Origin: Polytrichum commune
Lineage: Eukaryota > Streptophyta > Polytrichopsida > Polytrichales > Polytrichaceae
NCBI GenBank assembly: GCA_950295325.1
Contig: OX485809.1
Coordinates: 436,001 to 500,000, forward strand
Direction: 5' to 3'
DNA: 64,000 bases
Part shown: piece after piece, positions 1-56,003 of the stretch
Layout of the letters: each line of letters starts with the position of its first letter
How positions within the stretch are numbered: the first letter of the stretch is position 1
Translations under genes and position numbers: made by a program
The notes under the pieces: model-generated
What the model was told of the DNA's origin: nothing
Databases searched by the model: none
Seen by the model: the letters and a program-made list of their open reading frames with translations, nothing else

Positions 1-3000
1 CAGCTTAGCTTACACCAATCCGACAGACTTGTACTTGAAAACGTGTGGCCGACCTTTAAAATAGCTCCCCCAAACTGAAGGAATCAGAGCTAGCTTGGGA
101 ATATGAAATATTAACTTATACAAGTGGTTGACCGAGTCAGTTTCCAACGAGCAGTTTGGAACCCTAGCTTTTTATATTCTTTAAGGAGATTTCCTCATGA
201 GTGGTGTTCTTCCTTGCAGGCTCTCACTTCCTCTGCTTTCAAGTGGAGCAGGAGTAAGAGTGCATGCAAATTCTTCCCATTGAATTTCAACTTCTTCATG
301 TTACACAACCGGTTGCTCGTCCAAGTGGAGGGCACTTCCACCTATCCACGCAGAGAGCATTTCATCTGTATTCTCGAATTTTGTTCATGAGCAAACCGGT
401 TATGTCCCATAAATGGTTTGAGTAGCTTGGGCTGTTACTTCCTACTATCACAGTTTCCGTACATAGTCAGGTCTTGAATTTTTTGATTTTTTAGTTTCTA
501 GTTTCATAATTGGTCATTCAACCAAGTTGAGAGCACTTGCAACAATTCTTAGGGTGTATATTTATATTCATGCAAAGAGCATTTCATCTGTGATCTTCAA
601 AACCTACCTTTAAGCAGACCGGTTATACCCCAAAACAATTCGAGTAGGTAGGTCATGGGTATTTTAGACGGTTTGACTCTGGAAATAACATCGGAAACCT
701 CAAATTAGTCCAACAAGATAAAACTAGAATGAATTTGCCCTCAACATGTAGGGGACTCGTTTTTCACTAGAGCTCAGTCATACACGACTGATGGGTTTAC
801 ATAGACGTCCCAAACCCCAAGGCCTACTGCAGTATGTCAACTACTGTCCTACCGCCGGTTTTGTAGTCTGTGGTGGAGCCTGCTGGTGTTCTGCTGGAAC
901 TACCCAAATCAATTTAAGGTCCACAAGGTGCTCCGCTGGAAACAAACATTCTTACGACTCTCTATTTTGTGTTCTTTACTGCGAAGTCAGATTTCTTAGT
1001 TTCCCCAGCCTCTTGCTCAAGGTGGATCAAATTAGTCCAGCTCGTATCTTTTTTGCAGAGTCTGGATGAACACTCCTTGCGGACAGCGTGTTCTAAGTAT
1101 CAGCCACTCGTTTTACAATGACCATATTTGAGCTTTGGGCTGGAAGGATGCACTGGTATGTACGAACATTCCCTCTCCTCTTTCTGACGGAGCAAATTAT
1201 TATTCATCGGTGGTAGATGTATGTGTGAAAATGAAATGGGTAGTCTGTGAATGGTGTTGGTAGTTTCATTTTTAATCAGTTGCAGCGCGCCCTTGAAAGA
1301 ATATTACACTAGAAACATAATAGTTCCCAATAATTGACATGCATCACAAGAAAATTGTCCACGTCACCGGGAAAGCTCTAACATCTATCATAGTGGTAGA
1401 TTAACATATTTCTTCTAGTGGCGCAGGATGATTGCCGAGGACTCATATGCTAATAGTGTCAAGATTTACAATCAAACTCTGTATTTCTGGGGACAGAAGG
1501 ATGTGTGTGTGAGGTGAGGGATCGACTTGCGAGTGCAAGCTAGAGTGGTGTTCCACTAGAAGAAATCTTGTCTGTGACAATCACTTCTTGCAACTCAAAG
1601 ACGGTTGTCTTTGCGAGCAACGCCTTCAAATGAACAATGATTACTTGTAGTTGCGAGTTCATGTCGTTTATGCCTTCATGCCTTCAGTTTCTTATGCTAG
1701 AGGATCGGCTTGAGGTTGTAGAGACTCATTTTGTGAACTAGAATGATGTTTGACTAGTAAAAACCTTGTTCGTCATGACCACCTCTTGCAATTCAAAAAT
1801 CGGTCGCAATCGCCTTGCTGGCAAACCCTTGAAATTGACAAGTGTCTAGTTATAACGGACCAGTCGCAGTTGTGAAATTATGTCGTGTTTCCCTTCGTTT
1901 TCTTGCACTAGGGGGATTGACATCACTTTCGAAATTCTCATCTTTTGAGGTTAGTGCTTTTGGGTTTTGGGATTTTTTGGCCCTTGCCCTGGCACTTTGC
2001 ACGAGTATTATAGGTTTAATTAAGCCAAAACTTCATGATCCAGGCTGATCAATACAACTATACTAGGCTGGCAGGAATCACAATTTGTGCAGTTTAATCT
2101 GCTCGCACACAGTTTGATTTTCAAAGCACATAGGCTTTTTGTTCAGTCAAAAGCTTGGGTTTGAAATTGATTCTTTACAGAGCAAAGAATGAATGAATGA
2201 GTGAGTGAGTTTTGCCTTGACATGATTAGGATTATTGAAGTAGTACACTAAAGTTTCATATTCTCAAATAATTACATGTGGTGGGTATTAAATTAGTAAT
2301 ACTTGATCTTTACCATGACTTTTGAAGGACATGAATTCCAGTGGACCATGCTATGGACCCATGTACAGTAACGAGCTAAGACTTAGTAGGCACATCTAGG
2401 GGAGGACTTAAGGCCCCTACTTATAATGAGTTGCTTATCTGAGTATTTTCATTTAAGAATTACAATGGTGAGTAGAGGAATTGCACGAGATATTAAATTC
2501 TCAATTACTTATCGTAACATGTCATTGATTCAGGATGGGTTGATCATCTTGTTTTTTGATCGGAAAGGGAGGCTTACACTCAAGGATCACTACTTTACCT
2601 GCCAAGACCTCACCACACAAGTTTTAGTGGACTTGAGGACCACCCTCGAGTTGGAGAAGGTTGAAACTTGAAGGACCTGAAGGGCAGGTATGTATGTCTA
2701 AAATCCCCATGCTGATTAAGAAACTGGTTTAGGGTCCTCGACCCTCAAAAATGGTCAAGTCAAGTAATTTACTTTGTGCACCTTGATACTTAGGTTGAAC
2801 ACATGATCTTTACTAACGAGTCTATGTGTCAAAAGTCGTAACTCTGAGTTGCTCATAGACAGGAAGGACCACACCCGGAAGCTAAGAAATCTTGATTTTA
2901 TTGGGGATTTCCATAAATCACCTACTGTAGTTTGTGATGCAAAAATGTCGTTTAACACCCTTTGGAAGTCTAATCCACGTGTTTACTATCAAACCTAGAA

Positions 3001-3480
3001 TGGTAACCAGCTGGAATGCAAAGATCCTTTCTCTCATTTGTGTGTTGTCTGATGGTCCGACCTCATTGCAACTCATGTCCTTTTGGTGTCCACTCTTTAA
3101 CTACAAGTCGTGCCATATACCACTCAAATAGAGGTGTCCAATTAAGAAGTGACTCATCACCATGTCATAACACTCATTACCTTTTGCCAAAATTTGGGGC
3201 CTTATAACGTGGTTGGATCTCAAATTCTGACCTTTTTCTTACTAACCCACTTCTCCTAGGATATGGAGCATGTGATTAGTACGAGAATGCTTATCATATT
3301 TTGCAAGCAGAGTCCAATCTCTTTTAAACACATGCGTTTTTGGTATCAGTCATTGGAGTTGCACAAACCACATATTACTCAAATATAGACGTGGTCAATT
3401 AAGATAAGTAACCAAATTAGGCACATCTACCTAATCTCTCTCCCTCGTATCTAATTATATTACTTTAGTTTGTAGTCTTG
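1..3480. other. Gene-free 5' region with old repeats
   Basis: I see no convincing gene. Short ORFs here lack recognisable domains and show no splice-consistent structure. Bases about 1-130 resemble 48570-48950 (both contain the string GACAGACTTGTACTTGAAAA and a stretch around CTCCCCCAAACTGAA), so the start of the window lies in a dispersed repeat. Bases about 1519-1900 hold a diverged tandem duplication with a period near 184 bp: compare the segments beginning GGGATCGACTTG near 1519 and AGGATCGGCTTG near 1703, with a third partial unit near 1913. Confidence 0.6.
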
Positions 3481-3487
3481 TATATAA
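3481..3487 (+). promoter_or_regulatory. Candidate TATA box of the RNA cyclase gene
   Basis: TATATAA lies 95 bp upstream of the ATG at 3576 and 17 bp upstream of the alternative ATG at 3498. A plant TATA box normally directs initiation about 30 bp downstream, near 3512, which would exclude the 3498 start and favour 3576. This is inferred from spacing only. Confidence 0.4.
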
Positions 3488-3575
3488 GAATAGGATATTG
3501 AATATTAAATTTCACTTGATTAACACAGTGTATGGTGTTTTGTTGCACAGAGTACTAGACAGTCATATCATCAAA

Positions 3576-5390
3576 ATGTTGGAAGTGGTTAAGGTCGATG
3601 GAAATATTTTAGAAGGTGGCAGTCAAATACTCAAGAGTTGTGCAGTGGAAGTGGTTGAGGTCGATGGAAATATTTTAGAAGGTGGTGGTCAAATACTCAA
3701 GAATTGTGCAATGGAAGTGGTTGAAGTCGATGGAAATATTTTGGAAAGTGGTGGTCAAATACTCAGGAGTTGTGCAATGGAAGTGGTGGAGGTCGATGGA
3801 AATATTTTAGAAGGTGGCGGTCAAATACTCAGGAGTTGTGCAGTGGAAGCGGTTGAAGTCGATGGAAATATTTCAGAAAGTGGCGGTCAAATACTCAGGA
3901 GTTGTGCAGTGGAAGTGGTTGAGGTCGATGGAAATATTTTAGAAGGTGGCGGTCAAATACTCAGGAGTTGTGGAGTGGAAGCAGTTGAAGTCGATGGAAA
4001 CATTTTAGAAACTGGCGGTCAAATACTCAAGAGTTGTGCAGTAGAAGTGGTTGAGGTCGATGGAATTTTTTTAAAAGGTGAGGGTCAAATACTTAGGAGT
4101 TGTGCAGTGGAAGTGGTTGAGGTTGATGGACATATTTTAGAAGGTGGCAGTCAGATACTTAGGAGTTGTGCAGTAGAAGTGGTTGAGATCGATGGAAATA
4201 TTTCAAAAGGTGACGGTCAAATACTCAAGAATTGTGCAGTAGAAGTGGTTGAGGTTGATGGAAATATTTTAGAAGGTGGCGGTCAGATACTCAGGAGCTG
4301 TGCAGCTTACGCAGCGATTCTCCGCAAACGTGTTCGCTTTATAAACATCAGAGCCAATAGACCCAAGCCGGGGTTAAGACCCGCACATATTGAAGGGCTA
4401 AAGCTCGTTGCAACTTTAACAAATGGTGATTTGGTGGGTGCAATTGAGGGATCCCAAGATGCCACGTACACTCCAGGTCAAATAATTTGTAACGACGATG
4501 ACAATGGATCTGACAACAACACGGAATCTGACGAGTTTCTCAAGGTTGAAGTCAAGACTGAAAGAGTGGGAGCTTCCTCTCTCCTTGTACAGGGAGCCTT
4601 GCCGATGCTCTTGTTTGCTCCCAAAAGTATTGAACTGGTACTTAAACTTGCGGGGACAAAAGTCTTTTACGAGCCCCCAATCGATTACATGAAGCATGTC
4701 CTAGTTCCGTTACTTTGCGCGCAATTCAAGGTAAATGTTGAGATGGAGATCGTGAACCGCGGGTACATGCCACGGGGCGGCGGAATTCTCACCTTGAAAG
4801 TGGCCGATCCCACAGACTCGGTTTTACAGCCGATCCAGATGCTCCACCGAGGCACTCTCCTCAAAATTGTCGCCAAGCTTTGTGGCAATGGCCACCCGGC
4901 GCACCCTGAGTTTGTCGACGACGTTCATGAGGCTCTGTTGAGAAAGCTACGTGAGAAGGGTGTCGAGGATGAAGTTTTCGTGGAATTCGTATGTGAGATC
5001 GACGGGATGGATACAAACGTGCAGCTAGAATGTCGGCTCTTTCTTTATGCAGAAACGTCGGGAGGGTGTGTTCTCTCGGGCGCCTCGAAAGGAGGGTGTG
5101 AAAGCATGGATCCCGAGCTTTTGGCGTCTCAATCGGTGGAGCAACTGGTAAAGCAGTTGTCACACGGAGGCTGCATCGATGAATACTTACAGGATCAACT
5201 TATCATCTACATGTCCCTTGCGGAAGGAGTCTCCGAGATTTTAACAGGACCCATCACTTCGCACACGGAGACGGCTATTCACTTTGCAAATCATATGACG
5301 CAGGCGAGGATTATGGTCAAACCCATATCGGGTACCCCTAGAAATATCATTCGGTGTGATAATAGTCGATGCCAAAAGATAGCACTGTAA
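3576..5390 (+). CDS. RTCA: RNA 3'-terminal phosphate cyclase with 11-fold repeated N-terminal motif
   Basis: RtcA-type cyclases use ATP to convert RNA 3'-phosphates to 2',3'-cyclic phosphates through a covalent AMP-histidine intermediate. The unit from base 4248 to the stop covers a whole cyclase (about 380 residues; family 340-370): VEVDGNILEGGGQILRSC at the start, then NIRANRPKPGLRP, a TYTPG stretch, PPIDYM, RGYMPRGGG, LFLYAETSGGCVLSG, HGGCIDEYLQDQ and finally SHTETAIHF. The histidine codon at 5262-5264 in that last motif corresponds to the adenylated histidine, and the DEYLQDQ motif points to RTCA rather than the catalytically dead RCL1 class. No intron is visible. Upstream, in the same frame, ten more 22-residue copies of the N-terminal motif precede the true domain. 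I prefer the ATG at 3576 because of the TATA box at 3481; an ATG at 3498 is also in frame. Whether the enlarged protein is functional is unknown. Confidence 0.85.
   Translation: MLEVVKVDGNILEGGSQILKSCAVEVVEVDGNILEGGGQILKNCAMEVVEVDGNILESGGQILRSCAMEVVEVDGNILEGGGQILRSCAVEAVEVDGNISESGGQILRSCAVEVVEVDGNILEGGGQILRSCGVEAVEVDGNILETGGQILKSCAVEVVEVDGIFLKGEGQILRSCAVEVVEVDGHILEGGSQILRSCAVEVVEIDGNISKGDGQILKNCAVEVVEVDGNILEGGGQILRSCAAYAAILRKRVRFINIRANRPKPGLRPAHIEGLKLVATLTNGDLVGAIEGSQDATYTPGQIICNDDDNGSDNNTESDEFLKVEVKTERVGASSLLVQGALPMLLFAPKSIELVLKLAGTKVFYEPPIDYMKHVLVPLLCAQFKVNVEMEIVNRGYMPRGGGILTLKVADPTDSVLQPIQMLHRGTLLKIVAKLCGNGHPAHPEFVDDVHEALLRKLREKGVEDEVFVEFVCEIDGMDTNVQLECRLFLYAETSGGCVLSGASKGGCESMDPELLASQSVEQLVKQLSHGGCIDEYLQDQLIIYMSLAEGVSEILTGPITSHTETAIHFANHMTQARIMVKPISGTPRNIIRCDNSRCQKIAL
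3588..4313 (+). repeat. 11 x 66-bp in-frame tandem repeat in RTCA
   Basis: Ten full 66-bp units begin at 3588 and every 66 bp after; the eleventh starts at 4248 and leads directly into the cyclase body. Each unit encodes a version of VEVDGNILEGGGQILRSCA followed by VEV. All units are exactly 66 bp and none has a stop. Units differ by scattered replacements (for example NISESGGQ, IFLKGEGQ, NISKGDGQ, NILETGGQ), so the copies have diverged in amino acid sequence while frame was kept. Confidence 0.97.
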
Positions 5391-5588
5391 CTTGCAAACC
5401 TTCAATTGAATAATGTTAAGCCACAATACCTAGAAGTGAAGTGGGCCACTTCACTTCACACATCACATAACAAAATCTAGGATTCCTGTAACTCCCGTAC
5501 CATGTGCCCATCTCAATCTTAAAAGGTGTGATAATATTTGACAGTATAACATTCTGTATTGTGCAAATCCTTTATATGAATGGTTTAA
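5391..5588. other. 3' flank of the cyclase gene
   Basis: AT-rich sequence between the cyclase stop codon and the proposed piggyBac left end. Nothing else recognisable. Confidence 0.4.
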
Positions 5589-8252: not shown

Positions 8253-9880
8253 ACATACATAGATGCCACTCTGAGAACAGACATAGTGATTGCCAACAAC
8301 CTGCAGGAAGAATTGAAATCGCGAAGTCTCACATGAATCAAACACTGATCCAGTCTCACATGAAATTAAACACCGACCCAGTCTCACATGAATCAAACAC
8401 TGACCCATTCTCAAATTTCTTTATTGCACCAACTTGAAGAAGCTATCACTTACATTGGCAGATGTATTGAATTGCAGAAAACAAAAGCAGGTAGAGAGGA
8501 GCGAGTCAGAAACTTACCTGCTCCTGTCGACAATGCTGGGGTTGCGAGGCGGATGGGCGAAGAAGAGGAGGTGTTCCCACATTTAGGCGCTTGGGAGGAG
8601 ATTTCGAAGTGTCAGAGTGCAGTGCCGCTCGGCAGCACAGCGCGTGGCCAGCAGAGCAGGCGCCCTGGCGCGAAGCAGCGAGGAGCGCAGGCCAGTGTCC
8701 GAAAAGTTTTTGAAGTTATTGAGGTTAATTGCCTACCTCTTTAAAAGGGCATAGGCTATTTCCCTCATGGCATAGGTTGCATCCTACAATATCAAATTTT
8801 TGTAAGTTGAAAACCTTTTGAGTTTTTAAGTTACCCGCCAATTGCCTTCAAAACTAATTTTTAGTAGGTTAAAATCCTTCATATCTTTTAATGTTGTAGG
8901 CTTTAAATTCAAAATTTGAGTACTAAGTGGTATCCTTGGCAGGAATTGAACCTGACTAAGCCCTTCACCACGTTTGAAGGCCAAGGATTAACCAACACTT
9001 TTTTAAAGAGTTGATTATAATGAAAGGTTGCTAAAATTAACACACACACACGGAGAGTTCAAATTGCTGCGAACATTCGTAACCACAAAACTATCCAGCA
9101 AAAACCTCGCACACACACAGACAGAGTTCAAATCGCTCACAGAGTTCAAATCGCTGACCTCGCACACACACACACACACACAGAGTTGCTTGATCTGCGA
9201 CACTTGAATTTCAACGTTGCTTGCGCGAGAGATTGAGAGAGTTGCTTGATCTGCGAGACTGCGACACTTGAATTTCAACACAGCGAGCGAGCGAGCGAGA
9301 GAGAGAGAGATGCTTCAGAGAGAGGAGTTGTGATGAATGGTATTTGTAAAGATTGGCGGGAAGGGAGTTAGGGCTATTATTGATATCCGTCTATGTGCCA
9401 CCCAAGAGCCCCGAGTATTAGCCTAAAGATATGTACTTAGGTCAACTAATTTCCCAATTTGAAGAAGGATGAATGGCTAAAATCCTCTCTTTTAAAAACT
9501 TTGTAGGCAAAATTTCCTACATATTTTTTATCACATAGGTTGATATCCTATGTTTTTAAATTGTCCATAGGCTCTTTGTCCTACGCTTTCAAAATTTTAT
9601 AGGCTAAGTTACAAATTTTGTAGGCTGCATTTACACTAGCCTTAGGCTCTTGGCGGACTATGGCGCAGGCAACGGCTGCTGGTAAGCTTTATTTTTTTTC
9701 TATTTTTTTTGTTTATTTAGCCACTGAGAAGTCATCTGGAAGATTTTTGGGGATAATCGGTTCAGATCCTAGTGTTTGCAAGTCCAACCTGTTACATGAT
9801 CACATCCTCCGGTTTTCCTTTATTAAATTGGGGTACATTCTATAAATTTCCTCCAAGATGATAGTAATTTTTCTGCTAAA
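8253..9880. other. Non-coding interior of the piggyBac element
   Basis: No supported gene. A GC-richer stretch at 8500-8745 is open in one frame but has no recognisable domain. Bases about 9040-9180 contain (CA)n/(ACAC)n tracts and 9280-9312 a (GA)n tract. Bases about 9740-9885 are related to 48640-48770, so a dispersed repeat is nested here. Confidence 0.5.
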
Positions 9881-9885
9881 TAGAA

Positions 9886-10130
9886 CTTCAACCGGTTATT
9901 TCTAGAACTCAACCAGTTCATATGTAAATACCCGCTTCAACCGGTTATTTCTAGAACTCAACCAGTTCATATGTAAATACCTGCTTCAACCGGTTATTTC
10001 TAAAACTCAACCAGTTCATATGTAAATACCTGCTTCAACCGGTTATTTCTAGAACTCAACCAGTTCATATGTAAATACCTGCTTCAACCGGTTATTTCTA
10101 GAACTCAATCAATTCATATGTAAATACTTG
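9886..10130 (+). repeat. 5 x 49-bp tandem repeat
   Basis: Units start at 9886, 9935, 9984, 10033 and 10082, each beginning CTTCAACCGGTTATTTCTAG and containing CAACCAGTTCATATG. They are nearly identical, with decay in the last unit. A single diverged relative lies near 48776 within the related dispersed repeat, so the array is a local expansion of a unit that exists as one copy elsewhere. Confidence 0.95.
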
Positions 10131-10245
10131 CCGGTTCTCCCCGATCATTGCATGTGAGAGGGCAATGAGTAAGAGGACCAAATTGTGCATTATTTTGTTA
10201 TTCTTTTTTTCCAAATAAAGAGCTCTTTGGTTATCCTAAAATCAT

Positions 10246-11681
10246 ATGCTTATCATAGGGTATGTTTTTGTGGTGCTGGCAGCATGTGAAGTTGTGGGTA
10301 GAATGGAGAAGGGGCAGCTAAAATTACCAGGGCTGAAAGAAATTTACAATGATGATTCGTGGCAAAAGACATTCTCCATTTTTGATCCTGCACTTGTTGC
10401 ATTTAGCGGTCCGATGCCGGGCTTGCCATACCCTTTGACCAGAATGCCCACTTTATATGCATTATTCCATAAATTTTGGACTCCTCAGACTTTACGCAAG
10501 ATATGTGTGGAGACTAATAGATATGCTTCAGAAATAAACCCACGGTCCAAGTGCAACCCTAAAAAGTTACGGGGTGGAGAAACGTGGTTTGCATTACATC
10601 CACCGGAGTTGAGGGCATTTTTTGCTATTTCTTTATACATGGGGATCAAAATTGAACCAAATGTGCGATGTTATTGGAAGAAATCGTGTGATTTTTTATG
10701 GTGCCCGATTATATCTTCTATTATGACACGGAACCGTTATGAGCACATTATATGATGTTTACATGTGCATAATGACCATGAAGAAACCATGGACCGAACA
10801 AGTGTTGAATTTGACAAGTTGGTGAAATTGAGGTGGCTATTAGATGAGATTAAGAATCGGTGCAAGGATATGTGGAATTTGGGGGATAAGGTGACCATAG
10901 ACGAAATGATAATACAATACAAGGGTAAGTATTGTGGCATTCGTCAATACATGCCCAAAAAACCAACTAAATGGGGCATCAAAGTTTGGTGCCTTACGGA
11001 TTCAGAAGCGAGGTATGTGTGGACGTTTGAGGTTTATTGTGGAGCCAACAAGGGGGTTCCCGGGATCAAAGGTTCCAAAAGGGGTGAGGCTAAGCAAGGT
11101 GCAAATGTGGTATATGGATTATTACGTGGGTTGGAAAATAGGGGTCATATAGTGGTCATGGACAATTTTTTTTCCTCTATGTCTTTATTTATGGATCTTT
11201 TGGGTAAAGGCACTTATGCAATGGGTACGGTTAGGGCCGATCGCATTGGCCTCCCAACGGCATTGGCCAAAAAATCACTCTATACAAAATGCACTCGAGG
11301 ACATTTGGAATGGAGAATGCATAAATCCAAACAACTTAGCGCCGTAGTGTGGATTGACAGAAAACCGGTTCTTGTTATATATACGGTGGCACCACCAATA
11401 CATGGGGTCGGTGAAGAGTGTCCAATTGTTCAACGGCGAATGGGACATCTGCGAAAGGCGGTTAAGACATCTCCTATGCACTTCCAATACACCACGTACA
11501 TGTGAGGGGTGGATGTCGCCGACCAACTTAGGGATGAATATTCTTGCCAAGTTTGCACTCACAAGTGGTGGCACAGGTGTTTTTTTTTCTCTTGGACACC
11601 ACGGTGGTGAACATGTGGAAACTTCACTCTAAACAATCTTTGATTTTAGGAACCAAAACCTTGAGTCACAAATCTTTTTAA
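10246..11681 (+). pseudogene. piggyBac (DDE_Tnp_1_7) transposase, broken
   Basis: piggyBac transposases cut and paste DNA at TTAA. The frame from 10246 carries the typical ELRAFFAISLYMGI motif, then KVTIDEMIIQYKGKY (first catalytic Asp), KPTKWGIKVW, VVMDNFFSS (second Asp) and GVDVADQLRDEY (third Asp), followed by HKWWHR. Three lesions break it. A TGA at 10753 stands between EHII and CLHVHND, and a TGA at 11503 stands just before GVDVADQ; both could derive from CGA arginine codons by CpG decay. A run of eight T at 11581-11588 is one base short, and LLDTTVVNMWKLH follows only after a frame change. A possible cysteine/histidine-rich tail follows near 11750-11900 in degraded form. The enzyme is almost certainly inactive. 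Confidence 0.88.
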
Positions 11682-25868: not shown

Positions 25869-26565
25869 TGAAATTGTCTTAGAGCTTTCAAGTTATCTTT
25901 CTTGGTTTCATCGGCCTTAGTATGTTTAGAAATTTAGTCAATGTACATCAACAAAACATTGTTTTGGCATTTGGTATTCTGTTCAAAATGGGAAGCCACT
26001 TTTTGAATTCAAGAGCATTGCACTTGGACTCTCATCATTGCATGTGTTAATTCCCCAACTAATCATTGTATCTCTACTTTGATCCTCATTCCACATGTTT
26101 TACTAGTGTTCAATCATGCACCTGATTGTGAATTTCCTAGTCATCATTGCCTTTATATGGCCTCAATTGCACAAGGTACATTTCCTCGCAAACCCCCCCT
26201 CCCTTGTATCATTTCAATTTATGAATACCATTTGAGTTTAGGAGTACTTCCCCTTGCCTTAATTAAGTTCAAATGACCATCTCATTAGGTGTAGTCGAGT
26301 TCATAGTACATCTATGTATTAATGACTAATGTGGACACAATGTGCAGGTTGCATGAAATAATTGCTACTTCTATGTGAGAAACTATTCCAACCCAGCCTA
26401 CTATGTAAAGTTTCTTTCTCTACCTGGTCTCTTCCATTTTGTCAGCCCCCTCCCACTCTTCCTCTCTTCATTCTCCATCTCCCTCCTCCTTCTTAGCTTC
26501 CCTTCCATATCTCTCTTCCTCAGCTTCCTCCCCTTCACTTCCATATCTACACTTTGCATTCCAGG
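25869..26565. other. Spacer between genes A and B
   Basis: About 700 bp, AT-rich at first, then pyrimidine-rich at 26420-26560 (CTCCCTCCTCC, CTTCCT repeats). The pyrimidine-rich part is either a gene B core promoter/5' leader or, with TTCCAG directly before ATG, the end of a 5' intron. Confidence 0.4.
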
Positions 26566-27045
26566 ATGGTTGAGAGTAATTGGGGTTCATTTGAGTGGTT
26601 CAGGGACCATGTGGGTCTTCCTGCTATGGGTTTGAATCCTAGGAAGGTTGATTTTGAGGGGCAAGATGGCTTGATTCGGGAATGTGATAGTCTATGGGGA
26701 ATTAGGCAAGGTCATGGTGGTTATCATTTCATGGATGCAGGTCCCAAGGATCTACAGGAGAGGATCCTTACCTTGTGGCCCTTGGTTTACCAAAGAGAAT
26801 GGCCACAAGCTAAAGAAATTAGCCTCTCCTTTGCACTTGGAGTCATGGCTGAGAGGAGAGGTAGTACAGTCAATTGGGCCTTATTTGCAGCTGTGGTTCA
26901 AATCTCTGGCTATAAAGCACATAAGTGTCCACATTCAGATTTTGTGACACTTAGCTCTCCTAGTACTTCACCTGTCACAACAAACATAAAGGGAAAGGGT
27001 AAATCTCCTATTACCTCTCCTAAGTTGCCAGCTTGTGAGAGAGTG

Positions 27046-27162
27046 AGTGATGCTCCTGTTGCAGGTCAGAAGAGAGTGAGTGATGCTCCTGTTGCAGGTC
27101 AGAAGAGAGTGAGTGATGCTCCTGTTGTAGGTCAGAAGAGAGTGAGTGAGGCTCCTATGAAC
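27046..27162 (+). repeat. 3.5 x 33-bp coding tandem repeat in gene B
   Basis: Encodes repeated RVSDAPVAGQK; the last unit is changed to RVSEAPM. All units keep frame. Confidence 0.95.
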
Positions 27163-27393
27163 TCTCCCAATCCCTCATTTGTAAATGAAGATCATGTTTG
27201 GAATATGAAGAAAGAAGCACTTGGAAAAAAAATCGAACTCCTGATGAGGTTGTTGAGTGATAGAGATGCATTTGTGATTGGTCTAAGGGCAGAGATTAAG
27301 CTTGTTCAAAGTAATCTTAGCCAGGTTGGATACCAAACCTTGCAGTGCAAGGAACGCCTTGAAGTGGCGCGTGCACAACAAACTGCTTGTGGT

Positions 27394-28255
27394 CAGGGTT
27401 GTCTATCGTGACGTCCTGCCACCGTCATGACGTGTCGTGTCGGGGCGGACCCCTCCGTCACGACATAATAGGGTCCACGTAGGGTCATACTAGGGGGAAG
27501 CTAGTAGGGTGGGTAAAATACTTACCTTCTTGCCAAGGTGGCATCCAATGTGGTAGAAAAATCCGACGTGGATGTGCATATTTCCCTTGCCAGGTAAATC
27601 ATTTTGCCTTTGTGTTTATCATTCTGTTAAAATCAAAGTAGTAAAATATGACAAATGAGGGTGTGGGGGGGAGGGGAACGGAGCGGACGGGGACGGGAAC
27701 GGGGGCGGGAATGGATGCGGACGGGGGGGACGCCGGATGGAGGGCTGGATGGGGGCCGGATGGGGTACGGATGGGGGCCGGATTGGGGTTCAGATTGGGG
27801 GGGGAGGGGGTTCGGATGGGGGGGAGGGGGTTCGGATTAGGGGGGGCCGGGTTCAGATGGGGGGGGGGAGGGGGTTCGGATGGGGGGGGGGGGGGGGGCG
27901 GTCGGATAGGGGGGGGGCCGGGTGCCGGATTGGGGGGGGGGGGGGCGGATGAGGGCCGGATGGGGTGCCGGATGGGGGAGGGGAACGTAGGGAGTGGGGG
28001 GAACGGGGGGGGGGGGACGGGCGCTAGTAATTTTTTTCCCACTTTACCTCTACTTTGCTGACATGGCACCATACGTGGACATCGTAAATCCTACGTGTCC
28101 TAATTGGGGTAATGTAATTACACAAAAAAATACAGTAAAATTCAAGTTCGTCAGGATAAAGACGGCATCCGGCATAATGTCGTGACAGATACGTGTCGTG
28201 ACGCCACGACATTATGTCGGGATTAGCCTCCGTCACGACACAATAGACAACCCTG
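27394..28255 (-). mobile_element. hAT-like MITE with G-run core (family copy A), 862 bp
   Basis: Ends start CAGGGTTGTCTAT on the left and CAGGGTTGTCTATTGTG on the right (read inward). A perfect 8-bp duplication CTTGTGGT flanks it (27386-27393, 28256-28263). Subterminal palindromes of the type TCCGTCACGACA/GTCGTGACGG occur at both ends. It lies inside an exon of gene B, and removal with one duplication restores the frame. Compared with copies at 53010 and 61390 it is in reverse orientation; 63795 is in the same orientation as this one. Internal sequence is a long G-rich array, not a transposase. Confidence 0.95.
27660..28024 (+). repeat. Extreme G-run array inside the hAT-like MITE
   Basis: About 360 bases made almost entirely of runs of 3-10 G separated by short spacers such as CGGAT, TTCGGAT and GCC. 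Many runs of four or more G lie close together, so quadruplex folding of this strand is expected. Long open frames on both strands here are a by-product of low complexity. Confidence 0.95.
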
Positions 28256-48569: not shown

Positions 48570-48947
48570 TCCCGAACTCTGACTCCAATCTGACAGACTT
48601 GTACTTGAAAACGTGTGGACCAGTGCCCGGGAAGTTTTTGGGCATAGTTGGTCAAGATCCTAGTGATTCTAAATCCATCCAATTACATGTTGACATCTTC
48701 CGGATATGCTTTATTCATTTGAGGTATATTCTATAGATTCCTCTAAAATGATCTGTAATTCTCCTGAAGTCTCCAACTTCAACTGGCTATTTTTCAAACT
48801 CAACTGGTTCGTCTGTAACGAACCGCCGGTTCTTCCTGGACATAGGTGTGGACAACCTTTCAAAAACCTCCCCCAAACTGAATGAATTGGAGCCACCTTG
48901 GGACCCAATGCCATTTCTAAATATTAAATATTAACTTATACAAAGTA
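48570..48947. repeat. Dispersed repeat related to 1-130 and 9740-10140
   Basis: Contains GACAGACTTGTACTTGAAAA (shared with the window start), a stretch GATCCTAGTGATTCTAAATC shared in diverged form with 9767, and a single CTTCAACTGGCTATTTTTC unit equivalent to the 49-bp array at 9886. No gene. Confidence 0.75.
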
Positions 48948-54897: not shown

Positions 54898-56003
54898 GGT
54901 GAAGTCAAAAACTTAGTTGCACTTTTTGAAAAAGTCCCCCGACACCCGCATTGAAAACCTCTTTATACCTCTTTGAAGCTTTTATATTTGATTAGTTATC
55001 CATTCATTTAACAAATCACAAATTTGTGCTTCAACCTTAGTGGTTCATATGGTATCACAACCCATATCACGCATCCGAATGCCACTCTCATTCAACAAAT
55101 CAAAAATTTGTGCTTCGACTTTAGTGGTTCATATGGTTTCACAATCCATGTCACGCATCCGAAGGCCACCCTCATTCAACAAATCACTAATTTGTGCTTC
55201 AACCTTAGTGGTTCATATGGTTTCACAACCTATGTCACGCATCCGAATGCCACTCTCATTCAACAAATCACAAATTTGTGCTTCAACCTTGGTGGTTCAT
55301 ATGGTTTCACAACCCATGTCACGCATCCGAATGCCACTCTTATTCAACAAATCACTAATTTGTGCTTCAACCTTAGTGGTTCATATGGTTTGACAACCCA
55401 TGTCGCGCATCCGAAGGCACTTTCATTCAACAAATCACTAATTTGTGCTTCAACCTTTGTGGTTCATAAACCCTAAACCCCTAAACCATTCCAAATTGCT
55501 ACCACATATGTACTATTGTTTTGTTCTCACACTCATGTAGAAGTGTTTACATAAATTCCAATAGTTCTCCTTTACACATGTCACTTTCTTCTTCAGTGTA
55601 TTGAAACTCCAACAATATCCTTTTGAGCTACAATTCGGTATTTGTGTTTCGATCACTATCATCGCTTGGATATTTATGAGGGTTAAAAAGTTTGGCTACA
55701 TTGAATATTGGGAGGTATGGGAAACGATCATTCAAAGTATGAACAACTTTTTGCACACAATATGCATCCAATAATATGAATGGTTTTAGTTCATTGGGCC
55801 CATAACATCAAGTAGCAAGGCTAGGAGGGTACCCTTTAAATACCCACAAATTTACCTCACACAAGAAGGGAAAAGCTTGCAAAACAGGGGTGAATGAATG
55901 GATAATTAATCAAATATAGAAACTTCAAAAAGACATCAAAGATTTTTTCAATGCGGATGTCGGGAGACTTTTCAAAGTGTGCAACTACCTTTTTGACCTC
56001 ACC
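54898..56003. repeat. Large inverted repeat with 112-bp arms
   Basis: Left arm 54898-55009 and right arm 55892-56003 are reverse complements with scattered mismatches (shared GTTGCAC, CCGCATTGAAAA, ATATTTGATTA, TTATCCATTCATT). The 84-bp array lies between them. The right arm continues across the nested MITE: after removal of 56004-56412 and one duplication, AAGTTT follows, matching AACTTT at the corresponding end of the left arm. Confidence 0.8.
55012..55468 (+). repeat. 5.4 x 84-bp tandem repeat
   Basis: Units of 84 bp include AATTTGTGCTTCAACCTTAG, GGTTCATATGGTTTCACAAC and CACGCATCCGAATGCCAC. The period is a multiple of three and the plus strand stays open for 150 codons, but two frames are open at once, so I take it as a non-coding minisatellite. 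Confidence 0.95.

Follow-up and report, generated by a model that had tools for sequence, protein, structure and literature searches.

An in-frame array of a catalytic N-terminal motif in an RNA terminal phosphate cyclase-type gene of the moss Polytrichum commune

In RNA terminal phosphate cyclases (RTC), the adenylated histidine is His309 in Escherichia coli and His320 in human, and in E. coli RtcB is encoded beside RtcA (both from an extract of PMC6277466). An extract of a 2022 paper on maize RCL1 (PMC9048941) names five of seven essential residues, among them Glu14, Arg43, Gln51 and His52, lists Gln51 of the human enzyme as essential for cyclisation, and describes plants as being without RTC genes. 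Contrary to that description, the window analysed here (64,000 nucleotides of Polytrichum commune contig OX485809.1, positions 436,001 to 500,000; the contig is called C7 below) unexpectedly carries an RTC-type gene, which sits on a chromosome in a photosynthetic, LEAFY-bearing genome. The gene opens with eleven head-to-tail copies of a 66-bp unit that encodes the N-terminal motif of its own enzyme. This is a genuine and unusual in-frame minisatellite in a plant gene that was not expected, and the additional units are most likely a translated, tolerated tail. Literature searches for terminal phosphate cyclase together with tandem repeat and N-terminal, or with moss, gave nothing on topic as judged by titles and abstract openings; within these limited searches, no RTC array of this sort is known in print.

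The repeat array and its reading frame

Tandem Repeats Finder placed the array at 3580-4305 of the window (period 66, 11.0 copies, 88% matches, 0% indels, score 1116), and in codon register the units run from 3579-3644 through 4239-4304, with 22 stop-free codons apiece. A single open reading frame (ORF), from stop to stop at 3435-5390 (651 codons), spans both array and enzyme; counted from the first ATG (3576), 604 codons are intact ahead of the stop codon (5388-5390). Among the 13 ORFs of at least 60 amino acids on both strands between 2500 and 6500, no second one crosses the array. An earlier reading made from the sequence alone (the sequence-only reading) had described ten additional in-frame units of the N-terminal RtcA motif, and repeat finding, codon register and the single ORF bear this out. 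The array that it placed at 3588-4313 is present, but lies at 3579-4304, and the units that it called exact are so in length but not in sequence.

Any two units share 52-63 of 66 bases and 14-21 of 22 residues, and every unit differs from all others. Since no pair is identical, a stutter of the assembly is argued against, and an assembly artefact was judged unlikely. Adjacent units are no closer to each other than to the rest (58.0 versus 58.1 of 66 shared bases), and 43 of 60 parsimony searches reached trees of equal length but unlike shape, so that no order of unit duplication emerges from them. In-frame ATGs occur at 3576, at 3711 and 3777 (the opening codons of units 3 and 4), and then at 4605 inside the cyclase. 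Because none follows that of unit 4 until the middle of the enzyme, translation of the whole enzyme from an AUG start would have to read at least eight units, splicing or a non-AUG start aside.

The array was set against a background of 234 kb of this genome, made up of the window and 17 further 10-kb stretches at round coordinates. Three other arrays there had at least five copies and a period of at least 25 bp: the window contains one of 49 bp x 5.0 and one of 84 bp x 5.5, and stretch L107 one of 48 bp x 7.7. The 84-bp x 5.5 array (55004-55468) has 0% indels and lies in an open frame of 154 codons, so that the openness of an array alone proves little.

The cyclase domain and its descent

Unit 11 and everything behind it form residues 222-604, in which PF01137, a family that also takes in RCL1, is matched at 232-580 (204.7 bits against a cut-off of 27; E 1.4e-60). 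The best sequence match among structure chains was RtcA 4o89 (2.2e-36), and RCL1 chains were weaker (7mq8, 2.2e-17; 4clq, 0.0025). Across the genome (408 Mb in 64 contigs, seven of them of 42-78 Mb), PF01137 was found at three places: the array gene, a broken copy on C7, and an open frame on another contig (C1:30.99 Mb), which is RCL1 and matches human RCL1 7mq8 at 1.9e-117.

Prokaryotic RTC sequences were represented by the best 80 of 492 confirmed relatives, of which 79 rows were aligned for column counts and a tree. None of the 80 loci had a second motif in frame by two motif patterns. A human RTCA row was also used, and comparisons with it hold only if its sequence is accurate. In a quick tree, the window gene and this human row fell outside the 79 prokaryotic rows (Shimodaira-Hasegawa-like approximate likelihood ratio test 88), with an end branch of 2.25 for the window gene; the tree is weak owing to long branches and does not settle how the two relate to each other. 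The human row was the best blastp match (37%, 201 bits), followed by the best archaeal row (37%, 180 bits). By best match, active-site residues and this tree, the window gene is judged to be of RTC type, in the sense of descent and not of a proven active cyclase.

Residues E233, R240, R259, R262 and H271 align with 4o89 and 3kgd, and each is either invariant among the 80 prokaryotic rows or conserved in at least 90% of them. E233, R262 and H271 are the counterparts of Glu14, Arg43 and His52, and R240 and R259 those of Arg21 and Arg40, which are presumably RTC active-site residues. The adenylated histidine corresponds to H563, invariant in 80/80 rows. Of the seven active-site residues under consideration, this histidine and five others are retained. 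The equivalent of Gln51 is Ala270, at a position where all 79 aligned prokaryotic rows have glutamine, and with a residue reported as essential replaced, the complete enzyme of the sequence-only reading is doubtful. Additionally, 61 columns are conserved in 85% or more of the 79 rows, and the gene deviates in 18 of them; the rows themselves average 2.7 deviations, with a maximum of 14. This is not mere eukaryotic distance, since the human row deviates in 4, provided that its sequence is accurate. The enzyme is probably a fast-evolving eukaryotic-type RTC; because the key glutamine is alanine its activity is in doubt, and it may be weak or altered.

The glycine loop varies among units as GGG, SGG, TGG, GEG, GDG and GGS, the last of which (units 1 and 9) was missing from a list that was otherwise right. 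The pattern EGGGQ..R is retained in units 4, 6 and 11 only. The proposal that the protein has several independent sites for ATP or RNA ends is therefore unlikely: just two of the ten additional units keep the pattern, and R259, R262, H271 and H563 all lie behind the array.

Additional genome-wide searches mark the genome as that of a plant: the LEAFY domain, not known outside streptophytes, was matched four times, twice on C7, and chlorophyll a/b-binding proteins 58 times. At C5:1751760-1846160, fourteen chlorophyll a/b-binding matches of equal score lie within about 95 kb. For RtcB there was one partial match (C7:4602567-4602851, locus L117; model positions 1-93 of 426, E 1.6e-12). A search with PF09511, the plant tRNA ligase family, gave no match anywhere, controls included, and is hence uninformative.

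Selection, predicted structure and alternative explanations

In the broken copy (C7:522.6-525.0 kb), the counterparts of window 43-1386 and of 4525-5398, both at 86-93% identity, directly adjoin, and 1387-4524 is lacking. The copy has frameshifts and a 222-bp insertion, with five gap openings ahead of the insertion by blastn and seven in another alignment. Between gene and broken copy there are 52 coding substitutions (about 6%), of which 22 are silent (p 0.031). The mean divergence among units 1-10 is 12.0%, about twice that between gene and copy, and the array may for this reason be older than the duplication, if rates are alike. The missing segment takes in the place of the array, so the broken copy gives no sign of whether it once had one. 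A DNA search with 3400-4530 found no second array-bearing copy, only the window itself and short dispersed-repeat matches at the upstream end (40 of 48 candidates scored).

Relative to the 11-unit consensus, 16 of the base changes in units 1-10 are silent and 29 cause a replacement. With an expected silent share of 0.27-0.30 (one-sided p 0.10-0.27), amino-acid change in these units is not distinguishable from neutral. In contrast, unit 11 has four silent changes and no replacement, which has a probability of 0.007 at kappa 4; a Fisher comparison with units 1-10 gives 0.023. This contrast is weakened to a moderate one, since most of the silent changes of unit 11 are shared with other units on parsimony trees. 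Of 28 residue changes, 11 fall into the catalytic loop (unit positions 11-15), where 21% would be expected (P 0.011, in a test picked post hoc). The relaxed selection at the glycine loop that the sequence-only reading had suspected agrees with these counts.

Together, these observations make it probable that the array is a coding minisatellite, which arose from the opening codons of the gene and is tolerated as a translated N-terminal tail, one of the options named at the outset. It has head-to-tail units and a period divisible by three, and it lies in the coding frame of a presumably translated gene. The sequence shows that the opening 22 codons of this RTC-type plant gene were duplicated head to tail, probably by slippage or unequal exchange, and the frame stayed open because 66 is a multiple of three. 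In the predicted cyclase fold, unit 11 supplies the actual strand, loop and helix. Units 1-10 would serve as a spacer whose residues, above all those of the catalytic loop, drift, as the substitution counts support; stops and frameshifts may be purged from them.

Several points weigh against this explanation. Pooled over all eleven units, the silent excess is borderline (p 0.022-0.076, all changes), so that some constraint is possible. Counts against a consensus ignore the shared ancestry of units, and parsimony gives 24 replacement to 14 silent over 38 changes, with just one or two changes, silent, on the own branch of unit 11. A stop-free array is not significant (probability of none 0.2-0.5). 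The absence of frameshifts (0 per 28-45 changes, versus the broken copy's five gap openings per 52 coding substitutions; p 0.044-0.116) is suggestive only, and two of the three other long arrays likewise have 0% indels. Therefore, frame keeping in the array is suggested, and residue keeping in units 1-10 is not shown.

For the array alone, the best of five AlphaFold2 models had a predicted local distance difference test score (pLDDT) of 89.9 and a predicted template modelling score (pTM) of 0.81, with strands in every unit, and the worst had a pLDDT of 26.7. In a full-length model built on an 80-row alignment, the array coils had block means of 71-83 over residues 1-190, and then 64, 59 and 47 through unit 10. 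Behind them stands the RtcA fold, in which unit 11 supplies the canonical strand and helix (target template modelling score 0.88-0.91 against RtcA chains 4o89, 3tut, 3kgd and 1qmh). The RtcA sequence match begins at chain residue 23 in E. coli 3kgd and 3tut and at residue 5 in 1qmh; if the later start is read as due to expression tags, additional N-terminal residues seem compatible with the fold.

An alternative would be that the tail is a selected structure, with its 22-residue coils stacked as an elongated beta-solenoid on the cyclase that would act as a scaffold or offer a surface for binding, the glycine loop being a free turn. The strand-rich best model and the persistence of coils in the full-length one point this way, as does the constancy of unit positions 2, 4, 7, 8, 16, 17, 18 and 21 across units 1-10. 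However, the five array models disagree, Foldseek found no match for the array model in the PDB at E <= 0.001, and the silent excess in units 1-10 is not significant. According to an extract of PMC11795689, AlphaFold2 draws confident but unrealistic solenoids for perfect repeats, and a natural mucin is called into doubt there as well; the bias is perhaps confined to near-perfect repeats, imperfect ones being deferred there to future work, and the units here are imperfect. The elongated fold imagined earlier is thus predicted, but by a method whose reliability on repeats is disputed, and the beta-solenoid is neither accepted nor refuted; overall, a selected structure of the tail is considered improbable. 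A bolder version is very improbable: that an RTC-type protein, retained or regained in this plant lineage, has become a new protein with a beta-solenoid tail of its own catalytic motif on a cyclase that has lost a catalytic glutamine, and now works as an RNA-end binder and not as a cyclase.

It is also conceivable, although unlikely, that the gene is decaying as a whole, with array and enzyme both relaxed and the open frame a recent leftover. The conserved columns that deviate, the loss of Gln51, the long end branch, a sister copy already broken and a dispersed repeat directly upstream would all fit; set against them are 604 unbroken codons, the active-site residues kept, the adenylated histidine among them, and the silent excess between gene and broken copy. 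The neutral-like pattern of units 1-10 would also suit an array that is transcribed but not translated, as a 5' untranslated region or spliced out, with the enzyme starting near unit 11 from a non-AUG start or an upstream exon. A sequence resembling a 3' splice site, TTTTGTTGCACAG, was noted by eye at 3538-3550, so an upstream exon is possible, but this acceptor leads into the array and not beyond it. Moreover, there is no in-frame ATG between 3777 and 4605, unit 11 opens with GTA, and GTG opens just five of the eleven units, which leaves an untranslated array a slim prospect.

Neighbouring sequence and comparison with known systems

The features of the locus are collected in Table 1. The dispersed-repeat piece listed there matches at least 40 other places in the genome at 75-83% identity (40 scored of 3153 first-look candidates).

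Table 1. Features of the array gene and its upstream flank, in window positions.
Feature	Position	Strand	Basis
Upstream flank; duplicated with 4525-5398 about 84 kb downstream in the broken copy (C7:522.6-525.0 kb), without 1387-4524	43..1386	+	DNA comparison
Dispersed-repeat piece (transposable-element remnant); ends about 140 bp 5' of the first ATG	3284..3435		Genome-wide DNA matches
First in-frame ATG	3576..3578	+	ORF reading
Units 1-10, ten additional 66-bp (22-codon) copies of the enzyme N-terminus, in frame	3579..4238	+	Tandem Repeats Finder, codon register, substitution counts
Unit 11, native N-terminal strand of the enzyme with EGGGQ loop and helix start; four silent departures from consensus	4239..4304	+	Alignment, model (strand 224-228, helix 236-249)
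Cyclase domain; catalytic His H563 present, Gln51 equivalent is Ala270	4239..5390	+	Pfam, alignments, model

The 222-bp insertion of the broken copy (L007:5711-5938; C7:524.7-524.9 kb) is flanked by an 8-bp duplication (CATATGAC) and has imperfect inverted ends beginning CAGTG, and resembles a hAT-type non-autonomous element. Its relatives lie at 9738-9935 and 48618-48836 of the window, and the 49-bp x 5.0 minisatellite (9886-10131) overlaps one of them, as if the element were growing an internal repeat. A DDE_Tnp_1_7 transposase, presumably piggyBac-type, follows at 10240-11505 as two ORFs of one frame parted by a stop. Two pairs of ORFs that look alike by eye, 17168-17758/38189-38752 (-) and 21068-21529/41256-41759 (+), are spaced by about 20 kb, as would fit a tandem duplication of that size within the window. 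A second in-frame repeat of the window, a 33-bp x 3.6 array (27038-27156), lies within ORF 26497-27411 and encodes repeats of KRVSDAPVAGQ.

In the array, the N-terminal active-site element of an enzyme has expanded in place and its final copy appears to keep the job, which sets constrained and freed copies of one motif side by side. An RTC-type gene in a LEAFY-bearing photosynthetic genome also implies that plants may have lost RTC later, or less uniformly, than has been assumed. Both subjects are worth following; the idea of many active sites is unsupported. Additionally, the array offers a naturally occurring test for structure predictors, which perhaps call beta-solenoids too readily.

Among known systems, RCL1, an rRNA processing factor (human 7mq8 and the genome's own copy), shares the Pfam family and the fold. 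The window gene is not RCL1: RtcA structures match its domain better, it keeps the adenylated histidine, and the genome has a separate RCL1, which by eye has no N-terminal repeat. RtcA of P. horikoshii (4o89) and E. coli (3kgd, 3tut, 1qmh) is alike in Pfam family, predicted fold, catalytic histidine and most active-site residues, and differs in having neither the ten additional N-terminal units, nor alanine for Gln51, nor so many deviating conserved columns. Coding minisatellites, for instance mucin-type tandem repeats (mucins also figure in the extract of PMC11795689), resemble the array in their in-frame head-to-tail unit, a period divisible by three, and diverged copies. In contrast to these, the unit of the window gene is the catalytic N-terminus of an enzyme, and its final copy is part of the fold.
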